This document shows, in pieces, positions 1 through 10,371 of a stretch of 64,000 bases of DNA. Source of the DNA: Armatimonadota bacterium (GTDB lineage: Bacteria > Armatimonadota > UBA5829 > DTJY01); the NCBI GenBank assembly GCA_023511795.1, contig JAIMAU010000005.1:1-64000 (forward strand). Direction: 5' to 3'. The position numbers and the translations under genes are program-made. The notes below the pieces were generated by a model, which saw only the letters and a list, made by a program, of their open reading frames with translations, did not search any database and was not told the DNA's origin. Position 1 is the stretch's first letter, and every line of letters starts with the position of its first letter.

Positions 1-185
1 GTTAGAAGCGTATTCTCGGTAACATAGACGTCGTCGTCCCAGATATATCCTCCTTGCATTGCCGGGATGTAGGCAACAGCAATCATAATGACAATTGCCG
101 CTATACCCAGCACAATAACTTTACGTTCAGCTTTGTTGAAATCCTGGAAGATGGTTGGTCTACATTTTGCGGCTTTTTTATTCAT
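1..185 (-). CDS. TMTC-like membrane glycosyltransferase, N-terminal part only (cut by window edge)
   Basis: The first 61 codons of a gene that runs off the left edge. The ATG is at 183-185. A cytoplasmic start of about 22 residues is followed by one hydrophobic helix (about 23-43) and then the motif GGYIWDDD, the same helix-then-acidic-loop layout as in the four paralogues upstream. In GT-C enzymes such as TMTC/DUF1736 O-mannosyltransferases, acidic residues in this first outward-facing loop are part of the active site. The gap from the preceding gene is 56 bp, so it is probably the fifth member of the same transcript. The C-terminal TPR part is not visible. Confidence 0.75.
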   Translation of the reverse strand, partial: MNKKAAKCRPTIFQDFNKAERKVIVLGIAAIVIMIAVAYIPAMQGGYIWDDDVYVTENTLL

Positions 186-241
186 CGCAGATGTGGGTTT
201 AATCTAACATGAGGGCTTTAAGTAAGTCAAGTTATTTTCAT

Positions 242-1852
242 TTACTTGGGAACAGCGCTGCGGGGCATTTTTCTTTCAAGGGCTTCAATAAAAGTTGGGT
301 CGGGCTTGCCTCCATATTTGCGACAAAGCTCAACTTCCCGCCATGCCTCAGCATATCTCCCCTTGTAATATAATGCAACAGCCAAATTATTATGGGCATC
401 AGCGAAATCGGGCTTAATCTTCAATGCTTTTCGGTATTCTGCGATCTCAACATCTAGATTTCCTTGCTCTCCCATGAGCACACCAATATTAAAATGAGCA
501 TTGACATGATCTGGCTTAATATGAAGCACAGCCTTAAAGTGAGAAATTGCTTCTTTAGTTTTGCCCTTATCTGCCAAGACTCTACCTAGGTTGTTGTGAG
601 CCATCCAACAAGCAGGGTTCTTTCTAATCGTATCAGTCCATAGAGTTTCCTCATTCTTATAAATTTTTTCCTGATTCCAACTCAATACCATAAACAGCGA
701 AACTACGAATACTCCAATGACGGCACAAATTAACTTCCCAGCATAACCTGCCCTATTAGCGAAACTAGCAATAACCCCAACAACAAGGGCAATTATGCCC
801 AAGATTGAGATGTACTGCCAGTGGTCTGCTACCAAAGAATATCTCATAAAGTAAATATCTAGAAATCCTAACACAGGTAGTAAAGTTACAACAAAATAAC
901 CAAACCCCATTAGCAGTGGGCGTCCCCAACTTCTGCGATACCTCCACAAAATCCAAAACCACATAAATACCGCAAGTGTGGGAATATATGAGACTATCGA
1001 ACTTGAATCTAGATTCCACCGGGGATATACAAAACATAAGTTGCTAGGTATGAGAGCTTTATAAAGGTAAAACCACACTGCCCAACCTGCACCTGCTAAC
1101 CGCCCGCAATAATTATCCGCCCTTACTACTTCTTCACCGATTGCCCGATGTGACTGAACCCATGCCGTAACCAATCCAAACGCTATCGCCAATACAAAGA
1201 ACGGTATGCTCCTAATTATGTCCCTGCGCTGAACTTTGCCGCTTTCCCACCAAATACATCCTAGTAGAACAAGCGGCATCATTACTACTGATGTCTTGCT
1301 TAGCAAGCCAAGTGTGAAAGTTATTAGCGCAGAAATATACCAGCGAGCTTTGCCTTCAACAACAAAACGAAGATATGCCAGTATCGTAAGCAATGAAAAT
1401 ACCATTGGCATCGTCGTTCTTTGCTGGAAAATCCACGCTACTGATTCAACATTAACCGGATGGACAGCAAATATTAAGGCAGCAAACCACGAACCTGGTA
1501 TTCTAAGTCTCCTAAGCACTAACCAAGATAGGACTGATGCCAAAGCATGCAGAAATATGCTCACAATATGGTAGGGAATGGGATTTTTGCCCCAAATTTG
1601 ATACTCAATCCAAAAGAGCGTGTATACCAATGGATAGTAGTCAGGAGAATCCGTCGTAAACCAATAACGATAAAGTGCATTGGGAGAATTCATTATGGGA
1701 CTTTCAATAATAAAGACATTATCATCCCATACAAACCCATTACATATCGCTGGTACATAAGCAATTGCCGTAATCAAAAGTATGCCGGCGATGCCAAATA
1801 ACAACAATCGAAAGTGTAGACTGCTGCCTTTTAGAACGCGTCTTCTTTTCAT
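242..1852 (-). CDS. TMTC-like membrane O-glycosyltransferase with C-terminal TPRs
   Basis: 536 residues. Helix at about 15-35, then VWDD (41-44) in the first outer loop, DYYPLVYTLFW near 71-81, HPVNVESVAW at 131-140 and about nine further hydrophobic segments up to about 395. Three to four TPR units follow (AHNNLGR, AHFNIGV, AHNNLAV). It ends in the tail KYGGKPDPTFIEALERKMP, shared with two neighbours. This plan matches the TMTC/DUF1736 family, which moves sugar (mannose in animals) from a polyprenyl phosphate to protein outside the membrane; the donor and target here are unknown. The start codon overlaps the upstream stop as ATGA, so translation is probably coupled. The family call is firm; the substrate is inference. 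Confidence 0.8.
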   Translation of the reverse strand: MKRRRVLKGSSLHFRLLLFGIAGILLITAIAYVPAICNGFVWDDNVFIIESPIMNSPNALYRYWFTTDSPDYYPLVYTLFWIEYQIWGKNPIPYHIVSIFLHALASVLSWLVLRRLRIPGSWFAALIFAVHPVNVESVAWIFQQRTTMPMVFSLLTILAYLRFVVEGKARWYISALITFTLGLLSKTSVVMMPLVLLGCIWWESGKVQRRDIIRSIPFFVLAIAFGLVTAWVQSHRAIGEEVVRADNYCGRLAGAGWAVWFYLYKALIPSNLCFVYPRWNLDSSSIVSYIPTLAVFMWFWILWRYRRSWGRPLLMGFGYFVVTLLPVLGFLDIYFMRYSLVADHWQYISILGIIALVVGVIASFANRAGYAGKLICAVIGVFVVSLFMVLSWNQEKIYKNEETLWTDTIRKNPACWMAHNNLGRVLADKGKTKEAISHFKAVLHIKPDHVNAHFNIGVLMGEQGNLDVEIAEYRKALKIKPDFADAHNNLAVALYYKGRYAEAWREVELCRKYGGKPDPTFIEALERKMPRSAVPK

Positions 1853-3870
1853 TCACTTAGCCGCGGCTTAGGCATCTCTTTTGATAGCGCCTGAATAAAG
1901 GCTGGATTCGGTTTCATTCCATATTGTTTAGCCAATCGAATCTCCTCCCATGCCGCAGCGTAATCTCCTTTTGAGTAAAATGCCACTGCAAGGTTGTAGT
2001 GACCCTCGGCATTTTCAGGAGAAAGCTCAAGGCCGTATTTTAAATGTTTGATTGCTTCATCATAATTTTGCATTAAAGCTAATAGGGCTCCTAAGCTCAA
2101 ATGTGCCTGAGCAAAGTTTGGACGGAGTTGGATTGCCTTAGAATAATGTTGAATTGCTTCCTCATAGTTCCCCTGGCGGCTTAAAATATCGCCAAGATTA
2201 TAATGCCCTTCGACAAAGTCTGGATTAAGCTCCAATGCACGTCTATAATGGCTAATTGCCTCATCAACCTTCCCCTCCATAGCAAGCAGTGTCCCAAAAT
2301 TATAATGAGCATTCGCATTTCGAGGATTAAGCTTAAGTGCTATAACATAGTGTTTTCGTGCCTCGTCTGTTTGTCCTTTAGCAGCAAGGGATACCGCGAG
2401 ATTGCTGTGTGCATCGGAATAATTAGGGTCTAGTTTAAGAGCGATTTTATACTGTTCGATACCATCGTCAATTCTCCCCAATCTCACCAACGCTGTACCC
2501 AAATTGTAGTATATCTCCGGCTCTTTGGGGTTGCTTTTTAAAGCTTCCTTATACTCCTTTACTGCCAGGTCCAACTTTCCTTGATGTGTGTATTCGTTAC
2601 CCAGATTGTTGTGTGCCATCCATGAGTCCGGATTTTTGGCAATAGTGTCAAGCCACAGTGTTTGACAATCCTTATAAATAAAACATTGGCGGTATGTGAG
2701 AACCCCTAGAATCAGTAATATTGGTGCTACGCCGATGAAACTTACCGACCCCAATTTTTTTGCTACAGTAGCAAGCATTCCAGAAATAAGCGCTATAATC
2801 CCGACACTTGCCAGATATTGGAAGTGGTCTTGAACATAAGAATATCGCATAAAATAGACATTAAAGATTCCAAGCGCGGGCACCAGCGTTACCCCAAAGT
2901 ACAAGACTGCGGCAAGCGGTGAGGTTCCAATCACCCTACGCAACATAAAAAGGAAAACTATGAGGATGACAACCCCTATGGGGTATATATACTGCAACGG
3001 CTCAGTCGGATTAATATGCCATTTTGGATAATTGAACGTGAGATTAATAGGCCATACTAGCTTCCAAGCATAAAACCAGGGTATTCTTCCTGCTACGAGG
3101 ATTTTATTAATTAGTGGCATGTTCCACTCTTCACCGACTGCTCCAACGTGATGTTTCTCAAGATATGCCGTTAGCTGCCCCATTCCGCCTCCGAGCAAGA
3201 AAAAAGGAACAAGAGGAAGTATATCATTCCATTTCAAGCAGCCTTGCTTCCACCAAATAAGTATCAAGAGCACTGCAGGAAGAGTAGAAACAACCGTTTT
3301 GCTAAGGACCGCACAAATGAAAAGCACAAATGCCAGCCAATAACAGCGCGGCGAACCAGAAGTGCCATCAAGCCCGGCAAAGCGGATATAGGCAAGCATA
3401 GAAGCAAAATAGAATGCACCCGAGAGCACATTTTTTCGCTCCGTTATCCATGCTACCGACTCTACATGAACCGGATGAATTGCAAATACTGCCGCCGCAA
3501 GCCACGCTCCGGGGATTAAAAGCCGTCTTAGGATGAACCAAAATAAAATTGCATTCAGAGAATGAAGCAGAATATTAGCCAAATGGTATGCAAAAGGGTT
3601 GAGATTCGATAAATGGTATTGAATCCAGAAACTAGTGTGCGTCAACGGATAATACTGCTGATTTGCACGAAGATTAGTCCATATCTCAACAAGACCTTTC
3701 CAACTTCTGAGCGTCATATTTTGGGTAACGTTAGCTTCATCATCCCAAATGAACGCTCCATCCATAGAAGGAATATATGCGACTACAACCATCAAAACGA
3801 TTGCTACTGCGCCCAGGATTGACAACTCATTTCGCTTAAAAAATCCTTTAAAACGAACTGTAATCTCCAT
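1849..3870 (-). CDS. TMTC-like membrane O-glycosyltransferase with seven TPRs
   Basis: 673 residues, the longest of the array. Helix near 17-37, FIWDD in the first loop, QYYPLTHTSFW, HPVHVESVAWITERKN and several more helices up to about 400. Seven clear TPR units follow (AHNNLGN, IYYNLGT, AHSNLAV, AHYNFGT, GHYNLGD, AHLSLGA, GHYNLAV) and the shared tail KYGMKPNPAFIQALSKEMP. It differs from its neighbours in the second loop (TERKN in place of FQQRT), closer to the usual TMTC form. Likely role: transfer of a lipid-linked sugar to exported protein, with the TPRs perhaps choosing the target. The stop overlaps the next start (ATGA at 1849-1852). It lies 3 bp after the broken copy upstream. Confidence 0.8.
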   Translation of the reverse strand: MEITVRFKGFFKRNELSILGAVAIVLMVVVAYIPSMDGAFIWDDEANVTQNMTLRSWKGLVEIWTNLRANQQYYPLTHTSFWIQYHLSNLNPFAYHLANILLHSLNAILFWFILRRLLIPGAWLAAAVFAIHPVHVESVAWITERKNVLSGAFYFASMLAYIRFAGLDGTSGSPRCYWLAFVLFICAVLSKTVVSTLPAVLLILIWWKQGCLKWNDILPLVPFFLLGGGMGQLTAYLEKHHVGAVGEEWNMPLINKILVAGRIPWFYAWKLVWPINLTFNYPKWHINPTEPLQYIYPIGVVILIVFLFMLRRVIGTSPLAAVLYFGVTLVPALGIFNVYFMRYSYVQDHFQYLASVGIIALISGMLATVAKKLGSVSFIGVAPILLILGVLTYRQCFIYKDCQTLWLDTIAKNPDSWMAHNNLGNEYTHQGKLDLAVKEYKEALKSNPKEPEIYYNLGTALVRLGRIDDGIEQYKIALKLDPNYSDAHSNLAVSLAAKGQTDEARKHYVIALKLNPRNANAHYNFGTLLAMEGKVDEAISHYRRALELNPDFVEGHYNLGDILSRQGNYEEAIQHYSKAIQLRPNFAQAHLSLGALLALMQNYDEAIKHLKYGLELSPENAEGHYNLAVAFYSKGDYAAAWEEIRLAKQYGMKPNPAFIQALSKEMPKPRLSE

Positions 3871-3873
3871 AGC

Positions 3874-5690
3874 CTAACGAACCAAGTATTCTGGCATCTT
3901 TTTGGACAATTCCCTTATAAATGCTGGATTAACCGCCATTCCATATTTCCTACACCACCGAACCTCCCTCCAAGCATCTTCATACATCCCCTTCGCAAAG
4001 AATGCAACTGCTAAGTTTTGATGCGCTTCCCGATAATCTGGTTTCAATTCGATAGCTTGCTTATACCTAATAATTGCTTCGTCATAACTACCTTGGCTTG
4101 CAAGAACTACACCTAGGTTATTGTATGCTGAGGCAAAATATCTATCAATCCGAATGGCTTCTTCATACTCGCGCATAGCCTCTTCGTATTGTCCCAAATC
4201 CGCAAGCACATTGCCAAGGTTGTTATGTACTTCAGCCATTATCGGCTTAATTTCCAATGCTTTCCGAAAGTGCACTACGGCCTGGTTCAATTCGCCACGT
4301 ATTTGAAGAATAAGGCCTATGTTATTATGCGCTTCTGCATAACGTGGGTTGAACCTCAAAGTTTCCCTAAAGTGTTCGAATGCTTCATCATGCTTTCCTT
4401 TTCCAACTAAGCTGAGACCGAGATTGTAGTGCGCTAGCCAAGCTGTTGGGTTTTTTGCAATTGTGTCACGCCATATTGTTTCTTCATTTTTATAGATCTT
4501 CTCCTGTTTCCAACTTATCCCGGTTAACAACCCAACTATGGCAATGGCTCCAATTGTCCCAATTAGCATACCATTTCTTCCAAAACGTTTAAATATAAAA
4601 GCTGCAGTACCTATGACAAGAACGATAACTCCAGGGATAGCAACATATTGCCAATGGTCAGCCACAAGCGAGAATTTCATTAAATAAATATCAAAAAAGC
4701 CTAGAACTGGCAGTAACATCAAGAAATAGTAACCAAAAGCAGCTAAAAGAGGACGGCCCCAACTCTTTCTATATTTTGCAAAGACTATAAGGCAAAAAAC
4801 CAAGATTGCCAGGGGCATGTAAGAAATAATTGATTTGGAATTAATATTCCATTTCGGGTAGACAAAGGTGAGCTTATATGGAATTAGAGCCTTGTAGAGA
4901 TAGAACCACACTGCCCATCCAGCCCCAGCCATTCGGGAAGGAAATTATCGTTTCTAATAATTTCACTGCCAATTGCTCTATGTGACTGAAACCATATCGT
5001 AAGTATCCCAAATGCCAACGCTTGGATAAAAAAAGGCGCACTCCAAATTAAATCACGTCGCACAATCTTGCCTCTTTGCCACCAAACACACCCAAGAAGA
5101 ACGCAAGGAAGCATAACGATGGAAGATTTGCTAAGCAATCCCAGCAGAAATACAACCAAGGCGATTATATACCAACGTGCCCTAAAATTTGTGTAAAATT
5201 GTAGGTATGCAAGGATTGCAACCAGCATAAAGACCATCGGTAGTGTAGTTCGTTGCTGGAATATCCATGCAACTGCCTCGACATTAACAGGATGAACTGC
5301 AAACACCAATGCTGAAACAAATGCTCCTGGAAACTTAAGCTTGCTTAGAACCAACCAAAGAAGCGCCGAACCCAAAGCATGTATAAAAATGTTAGCCAGA
5401 TGATATGGACGTGGGTTCATTCACCAAAGTTGATACTCTATGCGGAATAAGCTGTAGACCAAAGGGTAATAATCGGCACTCTCTGTTGTAAACCATAACT
5501 TATAAAATGCATTTTGAGATTTAATCAGAGGACTATTAAGAAAGCTGTCGTAATCATCCCAAATGAACCCGTTATTAATTGCAGGCATATAGGCAATTAT
5601 CGCAACAACTGCAACTGCAAGTACGCCTAAGATAATTGCATTATTACCGCTTGCAAAAGCTATGAATGATAATTTTTTCATAAACTTCAA
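3874..5690 (-). pseudogene. TMTC-like glycosyltransferase gene broken by a stop codon and a frameshift
   Basis: Three consecutive open pieces together make one full paralogue (about 600 residues). Piece 1 (5690-5421) carries the first helix and FIWDD and ends at YQLW. A TGA at 5421-5423 stands where the paralogues have a glycine codon (YQIW-G-KNP), so GGA to TGA is the simplest change. Reading resumes in the same frame at 5420. Near 4935-4937 a run of three G (C on the coding strand) needs one more base to join NDNFLP to RMAGAGWAVWF, a -1 frameshift. The last piece (4932-3874) holds five TPRs and the tail KYGMAVNPAFIRELSKKMP. Two separate lesions point to real decay, although a homopolymer error could explain the second one. 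The 4932 and 5420 ATGs are probably not true starts. Confidence 0.8.
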
Positions 5691-5705
5691 CGGATATTGC
5701 GAGCT

Positions 5706-7520
5706 TCAGTAAGATTGTCTAATTACCCTGAGCGCATATGTGAGATTTCGCTGGGCTGATTCATAGTCTGGTTTCAAACGCACAGCCTCTCGAAAATGCA
5801 CAATTGCTTCTTCAATTAATCCGCATCTTGCCAAAGCAACGCCGATATTGTTATGCATTTGAGGTGAGTTTGGATCTAACCTTATAGCGGTGACAAAGTA
5901 TTTTCTAGCCTCGTCTAACCTCCCTAGTTCAACAAGAACTATTCCAAGGTTGGCATATGCTTTTGCAAACCCAGGGTCCAACTTAATCGCCTTTCGATAA
6001 AAAGCCAAAGCTCCGCGTATATCTCCTTTTCCCGCTAGCGCAACACCAAGATTGTAATGCACCTGGGGATTATTTGGTTTGAACTTCAATGCACGCTTTA
6101 GATAGTTCGTCGCTTGGCCAAACTGTTTCTTTTCATTATAGATAGCCCCAAGCGATACAAGTGCCTCAACGCAACTGGGGTCAATTTCTAGAGCGCGATT
6201 GAACTCAGCAATTCCCCTCTCTACCATACCACGTTCGGCGAACGCAAGCCCTAAGTTGACATGTGCCATCCAGGCAGTCGAATTCTTTGCAATCGTATCT
6301 TGCCAAAGAGTTATTTCATTTCTATAAATGCTTTCCTGCCGCCAACTTAATGTGATAAATACAGCCATTACGACGGCTACCAAAGCTGTTGCATATCCTG
6401 TGCGGATTCCAGTTAGTCGCACAATCCCACCTATTATGAGCGCTATTATGCATAGTATTGACTGATATTGCCAATGGTCTGCAACAAGTGAATATTTCAT
6501 GAAGTAAATGTCAAGAAACCCTAGAACTGGCAATAGAGTAACAACGTAGCATCCAAATCCGACAAGTAGCGATCGCCCCCAACCATTGCGATAAATCCAG
6601 AATACAGCAAAGCAAACCACTACCATAAAAGATGGAATATACGAAACTATTGAATGCGGGTCTATTTCCCACCTTGGATAAACAAAAGAAAGTCTATATG
6701 GAAATAAAGCTTTGAAAAAGTAGAACCATACCGCCCAACCGGCTCCGGCTATGCGAGAGGCTAATCCTTCAGGCCGAATAACCTCGCCAGCAATCGTTCG
6801 GTTAGCTTGTACCCATGCCGTGACAAACCCCAGAACCACGGCTGTCACAAAAAACGGAACAGCTCTGATTATGTCATACTTCTTGATACTTCCCTTACGC
6901 CACCATGTCAAACAAAGAATGACAAATGGCAGGGTTACAACCGAAGTCTTGCTTAGCAAAGCTAACAAAAACAATAACAATGAAAGCCCATACCAAAATG
7001 TCTTAGCATTGTCCTCAAAACGCATGTAAGCAAGCAAAGCCGCAAGCGAGAAAACCACTGGCAATATGGTGCGTTGCTGAAACATCCAGGCTACGGATTC
7101 AACATTTACTGGATGAACAGCAAATATCAATGCTGCTGCAAATGCTCCAAGGATTTTCAAACGCTTCAACACCATCCATGCAGCAACCGAGGTTAAGGCG
7201 TGCAGAATTACGCTTATAATATGGTAAGGAACTGCGTTCTTACCCCAAGTTCGATACTCTAGCCAAAAAAGGGTATAGGAAAGAGGATAGTAATCAACCG
7301 AATCGCTGGTAAACCAATAGCGATATAATGCGTTTGGCGAATTCATTATCCGTCCATGGATTACATATGTATTGTCATCCCAGACGAAGCCATTATTAAT
7401 TGAGGGAATATAGGCTAGAATGGTTGCAATGACGAGTGCAGCTATGCCCCAAAATGTCAACTTGCTTTGAATGCTGCACGATATAGCATGTGCCTTTCTC
7501 TTGGCAAAAAGTTTTTTCAT
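5706..7520 (-). CDS. TMTC-like membrane O-glycosyltransferase with five TPRs
   Basis: 604 residues. Helix at about 26-44, FVWDDN in the first outer loop, DYYPLSYTLFW, HPVNVESVAWMFQQRT and many hydrophobic segments up to about 400. TPR units follow (AHVNLGL, ALVSLGA, VHYNLGV, AYANLGI, MHNNIGV and a half unit AQRNLTY). Unlike the other complete copies it lacks the KYG...MP tail and ends right after the last helix of the repeats. Its ATG overlaps the TGA of the gluconolactonase gene (ATGA at 7517-7520), so the two are translationally coupled. That links the array to an envelope sugar-lactone enzyme. Function is inferred from the TMTC family. Confidence 0.8.
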   Translation of the reverse strand: MKKLFAKRKAHAISCSIQSKLTFWGIAALVIATILAYIPSINNGFVWDDNTYVIHGRIMNSPNALYRYWFTSDSVDYYPLSYTLFWLEYRTWGKNAVPYHIISVILHALTSVAAWMVLKRLKILGAFAAALIFAVHPVNVESVAWMFQQRTILPVVFSLAALLAYMRFEDNAKTFWYGLSLLLFLLALLSKTSVVTLPFVILCLTWWRKGSIKKYDIIRAVPFFVTAVVLGFVTAWVQANRTIAGEVIRPEGLASRIAGAGWAVWFYFFKALFPYRLSFVYPRWEIDPHSIVSYIPSFMVVVCFAVFWIYRNGWGRSLLVGFGCYVVTLLPVLGFLDIYFMKYSLVADHWQYQSILCIIALIIGGIVRLTGIRTGYATALVAVVMAVFITLSWRQESIYRNEITLWQDTIAKNSTAWMAHVNLGLAFAERGMVERGIAEFNRALEIDPSCVEALVSLGAIYNEKKQFGQATNYLKRALKFKPNNPQVHYNLGVALAGKGDIRGALAFYRKAIKLDPGFAKAYANLGIVLVELGRLDEARKYFVTAIRLDPNSPQMHNNIGVALARCGLIEEAIVHFREAVRLKPDYESAQRNLTYALRVIRQSY

Positions 7521-8500
7521 TTGAGGTTTGACTTATTGTTTTGCCTCCCCTTCATCCAAGGACGATTTCCCTCCACCTTGGTTCTAAAACGGTAGAGACT
7601 GGTGCGCGCGGTGATATAGAGGGTTTTGCCATCTGAATCACCCCAGGCGCAGTTTGCCGGCACCTCAGGAGTTTTAATTATGCCAAGATGTTTGCCAGAC
7701 CTATCAAAAACCCAAATTCCTCCTGGTCCAGTAGTCCAAACATTACCCTTTGTGTCAACTTTCAACCCGTCTGGGCAACCGGGGTCTCGAGATTTTAAAA
7801 CGGTGAAAAGGCGTCCATTCGCTAATGTTCCATCCTCCTTTACATCGAAAGCCCTGATATGCATTCGTGCAGATGAATCCGCAATATATAGTGTCTTCTC
7901 ATCAGGGGAGAACGCCAAGCCATTGGGGCAGTCAAAGTCTTTAACAAGAAGAGTTAGCTTGCCCTCAGGTGAAAGACGATATACACCTTGAAAATCTAGC
8001 TCACGATCTTCCTTTTTTACACCATAAGGTGGGTCGGTAAAATATATGCTTCCGTCCGACCTAACTACAACATCATTTGTCGTGTTCAATCGCTTGCCTT
8101 GATATTCAGAAACAAGCACGGTAATTTTACCATCCTTCTCTTCGCGTGTAAGCCTATGCATGCCATATTCAACGGCTATTAGTCGCCCTTCGTTGTCAAA
8201 GGTGAGTCCATTCGAGTTTCCTGGCACTTCCCGATACAGGCTTGTCTTGCCGGTGGCTGGGTCCCACTTGTAAATGCCTACCTGATGGCAATCGCTAAAT
8301 AGCAAGTATCCGTCTTTATGCCACACGGGTCCTTCAAGAAACTCGAACCCTCCAGCTACCTTTTCAACCTTTGCATCTTTTGGGATTAGCTTCTCAAACT
8401 CCGGTGCCAATACAACAACCGGCCTCGCCTCATCTGCCCATGAGATCGTGATAAAAGCAATTGCAATGAATGCACAAAGTGCCAATCCTGTTACATTCAT
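7517..8500 (-). CDS. SMP-30/gluconolactonase-like beta-propeller, exported
   Basis: 327 residues with an N-terminal signal peptide (hydrophobic 4-20, then SWADEARP). The rest is the six-bladed propeller of the SMP-30/Gnl/LRE family, which uses one divalent metal to hydrolyse sugar lactones. The expected metal ligands are visible in order: E in FLEGPVWH, N in TTNDVVVRSDGSIYFTDPPYG, N in CPNGLAFSPDEKTLYIADS and D in CPDGLKVDTKGNVW. Closest in style to the secreted gluconolactonases of polysaccharide degraders. A sugar lactone is what an upstream C1 sugar dehydrogenase would supply. The exact substrate is not known. Confidence 0.87.
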   Translation of the reverse strand: MNVTGLALCAFIAIAFITISWADEARPVVVLAPEFEKLIPKDAKVEKVAGGFEFLEGPVWHKDGYLLFSDCHQVGIYKWDPATGKTSLYREVPGNSNGLTFDNEGRLIAVEYGMHRLTREEKDGKITVLVSEYQGKRLNTTNDVVVRSDGSIYFTDPPYGVKKEDRELDFQGVYRLSPEGKLTLLVKDFDCPNGLAFSPDEKTLYIADSSARMHIRAFDVKEDGTLANGRLFTVLKSRDPGCPDGLKVDTKGNVWTTGPGGIWVFDRSGKHLGIIKTPEVPANCAWGDSDGKTLYITARTSLYRFRTKVEGNRPWMKGRQNNKSNLK

Positions 8501-9491: not shown

Positions 9492-10371
9492 TCAAACTGC
9501 CCCTTTCAGGGCACGAACAATTTCCGGAATAGCTATCCTTGGCTCTTCTGAGGCTTCGTACTCCAAAATGAGATACCCCCGATAACCAACATTTTTGAGT
9601 ATATTAGCTATCATTTTGTAATCAGCTGGCTTTTGGGGTGAAACTGTTGTTTTTACATGAGTTGTTATAGCAAATGGCGCAGCTTTTTCTATATCTATAT
9701 GGGTCGTCGCCTCGGAAATTGCCTGTGTCAAGATTGACACCAAACCAACTTGTTTTTACTTCCTTTATAATTGCCAGAAAATTTTCTATGTTGCCAGTAA
9801 ATGCTCCATGATTTTCTAAAGCTAGCATGACGCCGTGTTTTTCGGCTGTATCCCCGCAGGCTTCAATGCACTCGGCCACCCAGCGCGCAGCATCTTTGCT
9901 TGAAGTACCTTTAGGGGGGTCCCCGGCAAATATTCTAATGCAGGGCGCCCCCAGTTCTGACGCACGATGAATCCACTCATTAACAGCGGACACTTCCTTT
10001 TCACGCATATTTCCAGGAGGTACGCAGAAATTATTTTGCACCGACATCCCGGTAATTTCGAGACCGAGCAGGAAAGCTTTTCGCTTTAAACGGTTTAGGT
10101 AGCTCGTAGTAACGGGGTTCGGAAAATAATAGGATGTAATTTCAACTCCATCACAACCAATCTCTGCTGCAGTATCAAGAAAGTCTTCCAGCGTTATGGG
10201 ATTTTCTTTTGCTGTAAGATACTTTTTATAGGAATATGCGGCACAACCAACTTTCAAAATGGGGCCACCTTTGCGAGAGATTGATTCTGCACTGTTAGCA
10301 ATATTTGTGCTACAAACAACCCCAGCGGCCAGCCCTACACCCAATTTGAGAAAGTCTCTTCTGGTTGTCAT
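9492..10371 (-). pseudogene. Tat-exported sugar isomerase/epimerase-like protein, frameshifted
   Basis: Two overlapping pieces (10371-9622 and 9743-9492) make one barrel. The N-terminus has a Tat signal (TTRRDFLKLG, then a hydrophobic run). Barrel landmarks are CDGVEITSYYF, MLALENHGA and FGVNLDTGNFRGDDPY. The family would continue with DIEKAAPFAITTHVKT, which is present in another frame. The break lies at 9689-9700, where CTATAT occurs twice in a row; the coding strand has one base too many (or two too few) between the codons for DPY and DIEK. The rest (YRGYLILEYE) is intact, so the mutation is young, or a sequencing error, or a programmed slip. It overlaps the upstream stop by one base (TAATG). 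Confidence 0.75.

Follow-up and report, generated by a model that had tools for sequence, protein, structure and literature searches.

The window analysed here, a stretch of 64,000 nucleotides from contig JAIMAU010000005.1 of an Armatimonadota bacterium, opens with a row of paralogous genes in which a GT-C glycosyltransferase core is joined to TPRs, and thus raises the question whether these genes encode relatives of the animal TMTC proteins, and what a bacterium would glycosylate with them. Target choice by TMTC enzymes is itself an open question in animal glycobiology, targeting through the TPRs having only been proposed, as it is for the choice of cadherins by human TMTC1-4 (PMC11292533).

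Organization of the gene array in the window

On the minus strand of bases 1-8500, a gene for an SMP-30/gluconolactonase-like protein (SGL, 7517-8500; PF08450, E 3.7e-57) is followed head to tail by the paralogous GT-C+TPR genes A4 (5706-7520), A3 (3874-5690), A2 (1849-3870), A1 (242-1852) and A0 (1-185). The SGL product carries a hydrophobic N-terminus, and its position upstream of A4 bears out the first-pass annotation, which had placed the array behind an exported gluconolactonase. Three of the five array genes are intact, each encoding a GT-C core followed by a TPR arm that is short in A1 (536 aa) and long in A2 (673 aa), A4 being of 604 aa. TPR repeats were detected with Pfam in A1, A2, A3 and A4. 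A3 is a broken gene: an in-frame TGA occupies 5421-5423, and the frame shifts by one base near 4938. A0 is the start of a fifth GT-C gene, of which 61 codons can be translated before the contig edge cuts it off. Since window position 1 is base 1 of the contig (herein C5), the truncation of the array is attributable to the assembly break and not to biology. Stop and start codons overlap (by 4 bases) at only two of the five junctions, SGL/A4 and A2/A1; at the other three the genes are separated by 3, about 15-24 and 56 bases. The same annotation had described five paralogues with overlapping stop and start codons; the head-to-tail paralogy stands, but five intact overlapping genes are ruled out by the lesions in A3, the edge truncation of A0 and the small number of overlaps. 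Chance does not explain the array, because the genome as a whole contains 32 such ORFs at full length, and the gene order, from three sugar isomerase-like genes through SGL, A4, A3, A2 and A1 to A0, is kept in a sister genome of the same genus (G001).

The A3 ortholog in G001 is an intact frame of 604 codons. Recoding of the TGA in A3 was considered and rejected, because A3 is also frameshifted and the 32 other frames can all be read without it. For the downstream part of A3, dN/dS against G001 was 0.080 (core) and 0.106 (arm) by a counting method, and these low values suggest that the loss of A3 is recent. The neighbouring sugar isomerase-like gene (9492-10371) has lost two bases near 9695 compared with an intact G001 ortholog of 294 codons, which brings the lesions in this gene cluster, those of A3 included, to three within about 5 kb.

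Predicted fold and conserved residues

Each of the intact array proteins consists of a GT-C membrane glycosyltransferase core and, as in animal TMTC, a TPR arm that would point outward. The Pfam family PMT_2 (PF13231, cut-off 26.1 bits) was detected in A1 (42.9 bits) and in one piece of A3 (30.6 bits), A2 and A4 showing no match to this family; among the 32 intact cores of the genome, 22 matched at E 0.1. A2 was modelled with AlphaFold, both in full (eight alignment rows; pLDDT 79.7), with the TPR arm predicted at high confidence, and as the core alone (pLDDT 75.3, pTM 0.82). The best fold matches of the full model were TPR proteins, including OGT. For the core, Foldseek gave nothing below E 0.001, the best match being Pmt4 at 4.2e-3, and VIA-align listed 50 matches, of which 48 are GT-C-fold proteins with Z of 10.6-19.7, the next being at 4.6. 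These include OST, Pmt4, Pmt1-2, ArnT, PglB, AglB, Alg, Emb and DPY19, together with AftA/B/D, EmbA/B and PimE. The first-pass annotation had named a missing GT-C donor pocket as an outcome that would refute its proposal; the model was compared at the level of the overall fold, and this is GT-C. TMTC was absent among the PDB matches listed by either program for the core, a sequence-profile search of PDB gave no match at E 1, and a viral fold library gave none below E 0.001.

From the predicted helices and hydropathy, the A2 core would span the membrane 11 times, with the WDD motif, Lys191, the DHFQY motif and the TPR arm all probably on the outer face and D43/D44 in the first outer loop of this topology. 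The conservation anticipated for the acidic WDD loop was found: in the catalytic-loop motif [W/Y/F]DD, the first Asp is present in 32/32 cores and the second acid in 31/32, the position of the TMTC DD motif (EL1, M1), assigned by eye, being DD in 30 cores, DE in one and DG in one.

The likeness to TMTC, which had also been proposed, holds for the GT-C core with its outward TPR arm and ends with the defining features tested. The family TMTC_DUF1736 (PF08409) matched 0/32 cores at E 0.1, and nothing in the whole genome at E 1. At the position of KE(T/Q)xxT (M4), set by eye in an alignment built from other sequences than human TMTC, Lys is present in 32/32 cores and Glu in 1/32, with P, T, S or I in the remaining 31; at that of ERxxY (M7), likewise placed by eye, Glu is found in 0/32, Arg in 27/32, His in 5/32 (the clade of the window) and Tyr in 32/32. 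The region of the DW motif (EL4, M5), with column equivalence again set by eye, reads FYPH or VYPR in most cores. Motifs to which the literature assigns the binding of phosphate and metal in TMTC differ here. As the layout and fold are TMTC-like and tested defining features are lacking, we class these proteins as GT-C enzymes resembling TMTC and keep them apart from TMTC itself. One core, at L045:3420-4974 (C23:29419-30975 of the window's own genome, G000), appeared by eye the most TMTC-like, with YRPI, GRTD, SKE and QRLLY, from which the other 31 differ.

GT-C/TPR relatives were also observed on IMG/VR viral contigs, at L062:3279-4811 (next to integrase and tail collar genes), L063:4971-6602 (integrase and terminase), L064:4656-7007 (DnaB helicase) and L096 near 6001 (P22-like portal and coat genes). 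At 36.2 bits, the L064 protein lies above the PF08409 threshold of 27 bits, and its alignment to the A2 core (E 5e-7) connects TMTC proper with the group of the window; it may represent a phage-carried TMTC-type glycosyltransferase. No match to L062 was found among the INPHARED phages, and of four proteins compared with PHROGs none matched.

Copy number, selection and core sharing

The array turned out to be a small part of a much larger set. The window's own genome (3.09 Mb) carries 32 intact cores and three incomplete ones (the damaged A3, and A0 and its counterpart B0 on contig C18, both cut by contig edges), 35 loci in all. A profile built from the 32 cores gave, at E 1e-20 and with every candidate scored, 34 matches in this genome (A3 being hit twice, in pieces, besides the 32 intact cores), 34 in G001, and 11, 11, 8 and 6 in four other chosen relatives. 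At 1e-15, 31/61 genomes (the own genome included) carried a match, the highest number outside the genus being 11; in this count 32 of 53 candidates were scored for G000 and 32 of 50 for G001. In a sample of the phylum, 76/291 genomes carried a match at 1e-30, the per-genome counts being lower bounds as the best 6 candidates were scored in most genomes. The first-pass annotation had pictured a protein-glycosylation 'factory' in a five-fold array; with most of the about 35 copies lying elsewhere, any factory would be a feature of the whole genome. The larger finding is this expansion outside the window, with about 35 copies against 11 or fewer in the other relatives counted.

The copies stand in runs, such as five consecutive ones on C8 and four on C6, and PMT_2 and DUF2142 membrane proteins that lack TPRs are interspersed in the arrays. 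A second GT-C+TPR class was recognized by eye as seven ORFs in the same arrays (G000 C6:124867, C7:111602, C7:118337, C11:29007, C11:31233, C11:33357 and C21:31568), and the two that were checked carry PMT_2 plus TPRs. In the tree, 24 cores fall into one large clade common to the class relatives and the window's five into another, with members from G003 and G052; the bootstrap has not settled and many forks are open, and the join of the C23 core with L064 is a long-branch one on which we put no weight. In a plasmid search, the 20 matches listed were mainly to the TPR part, and 0/549 records covered 80% of the query.

Inflation of the copy number by assembly errors or by contamination of the metagenome bin must be considered, since the genome is in 35 contigs and these break exactly at shared 77-base stretches within the genes concerned. 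We regard such inflation as highly improbable: a second genome of the genus gives the same number of matches with the same order around the window's array, the estimated contamination is 2.45%, and an assembly broken at identical repeats would lose copies rather than gain them. The opening 77 bases of C5 recur without a mismatch as the closing 77 of C18, and those of C3 as the closing 77 of C21, allowing for reverse orientation, with similarity ending abruptly beyond in both cases; the fixed length of 77 bases suggests the word length of the assembler.

The first of these shared stretches, bases 1-77 of the window (minus strand), lies at the start of the A0 core. It is 100% identical to B0 at the end of C18 and 70% identical to A0's own G001 ortholog, against which the upstream flank is 93-97% identical, while over the same 77 bases B0 agrees to 96% with its G001 counterpart. 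The A0 core start was therefore derived from B0 in this species. At the core end the pair shows no difference in G000 and 93-99% identity in G001, the TPR arms being about 50% identical. A0 and B0 thus carry identical core ends and unrelated TPR arms, by core conversion; the pairing of starts with arms, A0 with that of C3 and B0 with that of C21, was deduced from gene order, the middle of the core being absent from the contigs. Flanks without homology would by themselves confine conversion to the core, so that this sharing is no proof of selection. General gene conversion among the paralogs was examined by scanning 1835 and 1855 windows of 99 bases, and was rejected: a paralog was closer than the ortholog in only 4 and 19 of them, all at the ends of physically overlapping stop-to-stop ORFs. 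As far as the scan indicates, A0/B0 is the sole case of core conversion.

Selection was estimated by the counting method for 32 G000/G001 ortholog pairs, one of which is the downstream piece of A3. The median dN/dS was 0.137 in both domains, with ranges of 0.074-0.277 in the core and 0.029-0.327 in the TPR arm, indicating on this sequence comparison that the pairs are under purifying selection. As the arms are as constrained as the cores, there is no sign of fast arm specialisation. These values also weaken the idea that the expansion is largely non-adaptive, a set of redundant tandem duplicates with several in decay. That idea draws on the two lesions in A3, the two-base deletion in the 9492-10371 gene, the wide variation in copy number among relatives, and a core at C11:27267-28919 that lacks an ortholog among the fetched G001 regions; set against it are dN/dS below 0.33 in both domains for 32/32 pairs, 32 intact frames, and the age of the paralogs, which have a DNA identity of about 63-75% across the longer alignments and are nevertheless retained in both species. 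We therefore hold it to be unlikely. The C11 core itself marks a gain or a loss since the two species split.

Proposed function and comparison with known glycosyltransferases

Taken together, we propose, with a probability of roughly one half, that the array genes encode extracytoplasmic O-glycosyltransferases using polyprenyl-phosphate sugars, the TPR arms choosing the targets and the acceptors being most plausibly exported proteins. The GT-C core, with its 11 putative membrane helices, would take one sugar from a polyprenyl-phosphate carrier, the catalytic base would be an Asp in the [W/Y/F]DD motif of the outer loop that comes first, and the C-terminal TPR superhelix on the outer face would recruit the acceptor, so that the about 35 copies of the genus might perform similar chemistry with different TPR arms. 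Since the arms differ among the copies, different acceptors are most likely, exported proteins being the most plausible ones. As to the donor, a GT2 gene lies inside the GT-C/TPR array of C20 (L043:5682-6491; G000 C20:17681-18490), and its best PDB match is dolichol-phosphate mannose synthase (5mlz, E 1.4e-9), which fits a donor of the polyprenyl-phosphate-sugar type.

GT-C enzymes also act on lipid and polysaccharide acceptors, and the presence of such enzymes among the fold matches of A2 counts against a protein acceptor. The main rival is accordingly that these are ArnT-, Gtr- or Emb-like glycosyltransferases of envelope glycan or lipid, decorating a surface polysaccharide, with the TPR arm as scaffold of an enzyme complex. 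ArnT, AftA/B/D, EmbA/B and PimE all appear among the GT-C matches, and the arrays mix in the TPR-less PMT_2 and DUF2142 proteins. In addition, phage-borne glycosyltransferases are expected in lysogenic surface conversion, and relatives with the same core are found on phage contigs, where their neighbours encode integrase, terminase, tail-collar, portal and coat proteins. About 35 enzymes with separate TPR arms are, however, many for one polysaccharide, and the nearest studied TPR-bearing GT-C enzymes modify proteins, according to PMC11292533. This rival deserves serious attention, but we judge it clearly less probable than O-glycosylation of exported proteins. A wider form of the latter, in which about 35 enzymes make up a genus-wide modular O-glycosylation with a common core and varied TPR address arms, core conversion (A0/B0, in both species) keeping the chemistry alike while the clients differ, is put forward as a tentative extension that we would not yet favour.

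Prokaryotic TMTC-like proteins are already in print (PMC7801869), and we found no report of a comparable TMTC-like expansion in the mostly non-subscription literature searched. The family would bear on the prokaryotic roots of TMTC. Moreover, some 35 natural versions, among them a pair alike at the core ends and different in the arm, would make the contribution of the TPR arm directly testable in a simple host.

Among known systems, Pmt1-2, Pmt4, ArnT, PglB and STT3 have the GT-C fold in common with the window proteins (Z about 15-20), at a sequence identity to the A2 core of about 10-12%. PMTs, ArnT, PglB and STT3 have other C-terminal domains where the window proteins have TPRs. PMT and ArnT also have an acidic first outer loop, as described in PMC7801869. 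O-GlcNAc transferase and SPINDLY likewise combine a TPR superhelix with a glycosyltransferase, and their TPR domains rank high in the fold search. Their catalytic domain is, however, of the GT-B type, soluble and nucleotide-sugar dependent, and the part in common with the window proteins is the TPR repeat only.

TMTC1-4, the animal O-mannosyltransferases of CAZy GT105, are alike in the N-terminal GT-C core, the acidic first outer loop and the outer or lumenal TPRs; the window family differs from them in being without PF08409, in the loss of the KE Glu in 31/32 cores, in the change of ER..Y to DR..Y or, in the window's clade, DH..Y, and in its about 35 copies against four TMTCs in vertebrates. 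TMTC-like genes are placed widely in protists by a review (PMC8724618), and PMC7801869 gives seven motifs for TMTC and reports transferase-plus-TPR homologs in many prokaryotes. Such prokaryotic TMTC-like proteins, for example AMJ42_05695 of Deltaproteobacteria bacterium DG_8 (same source), have the same two-part architecture, from which the family described here is set apart by its high copy number, its tandem arrays and its DH(W/F/Y)QY clade.
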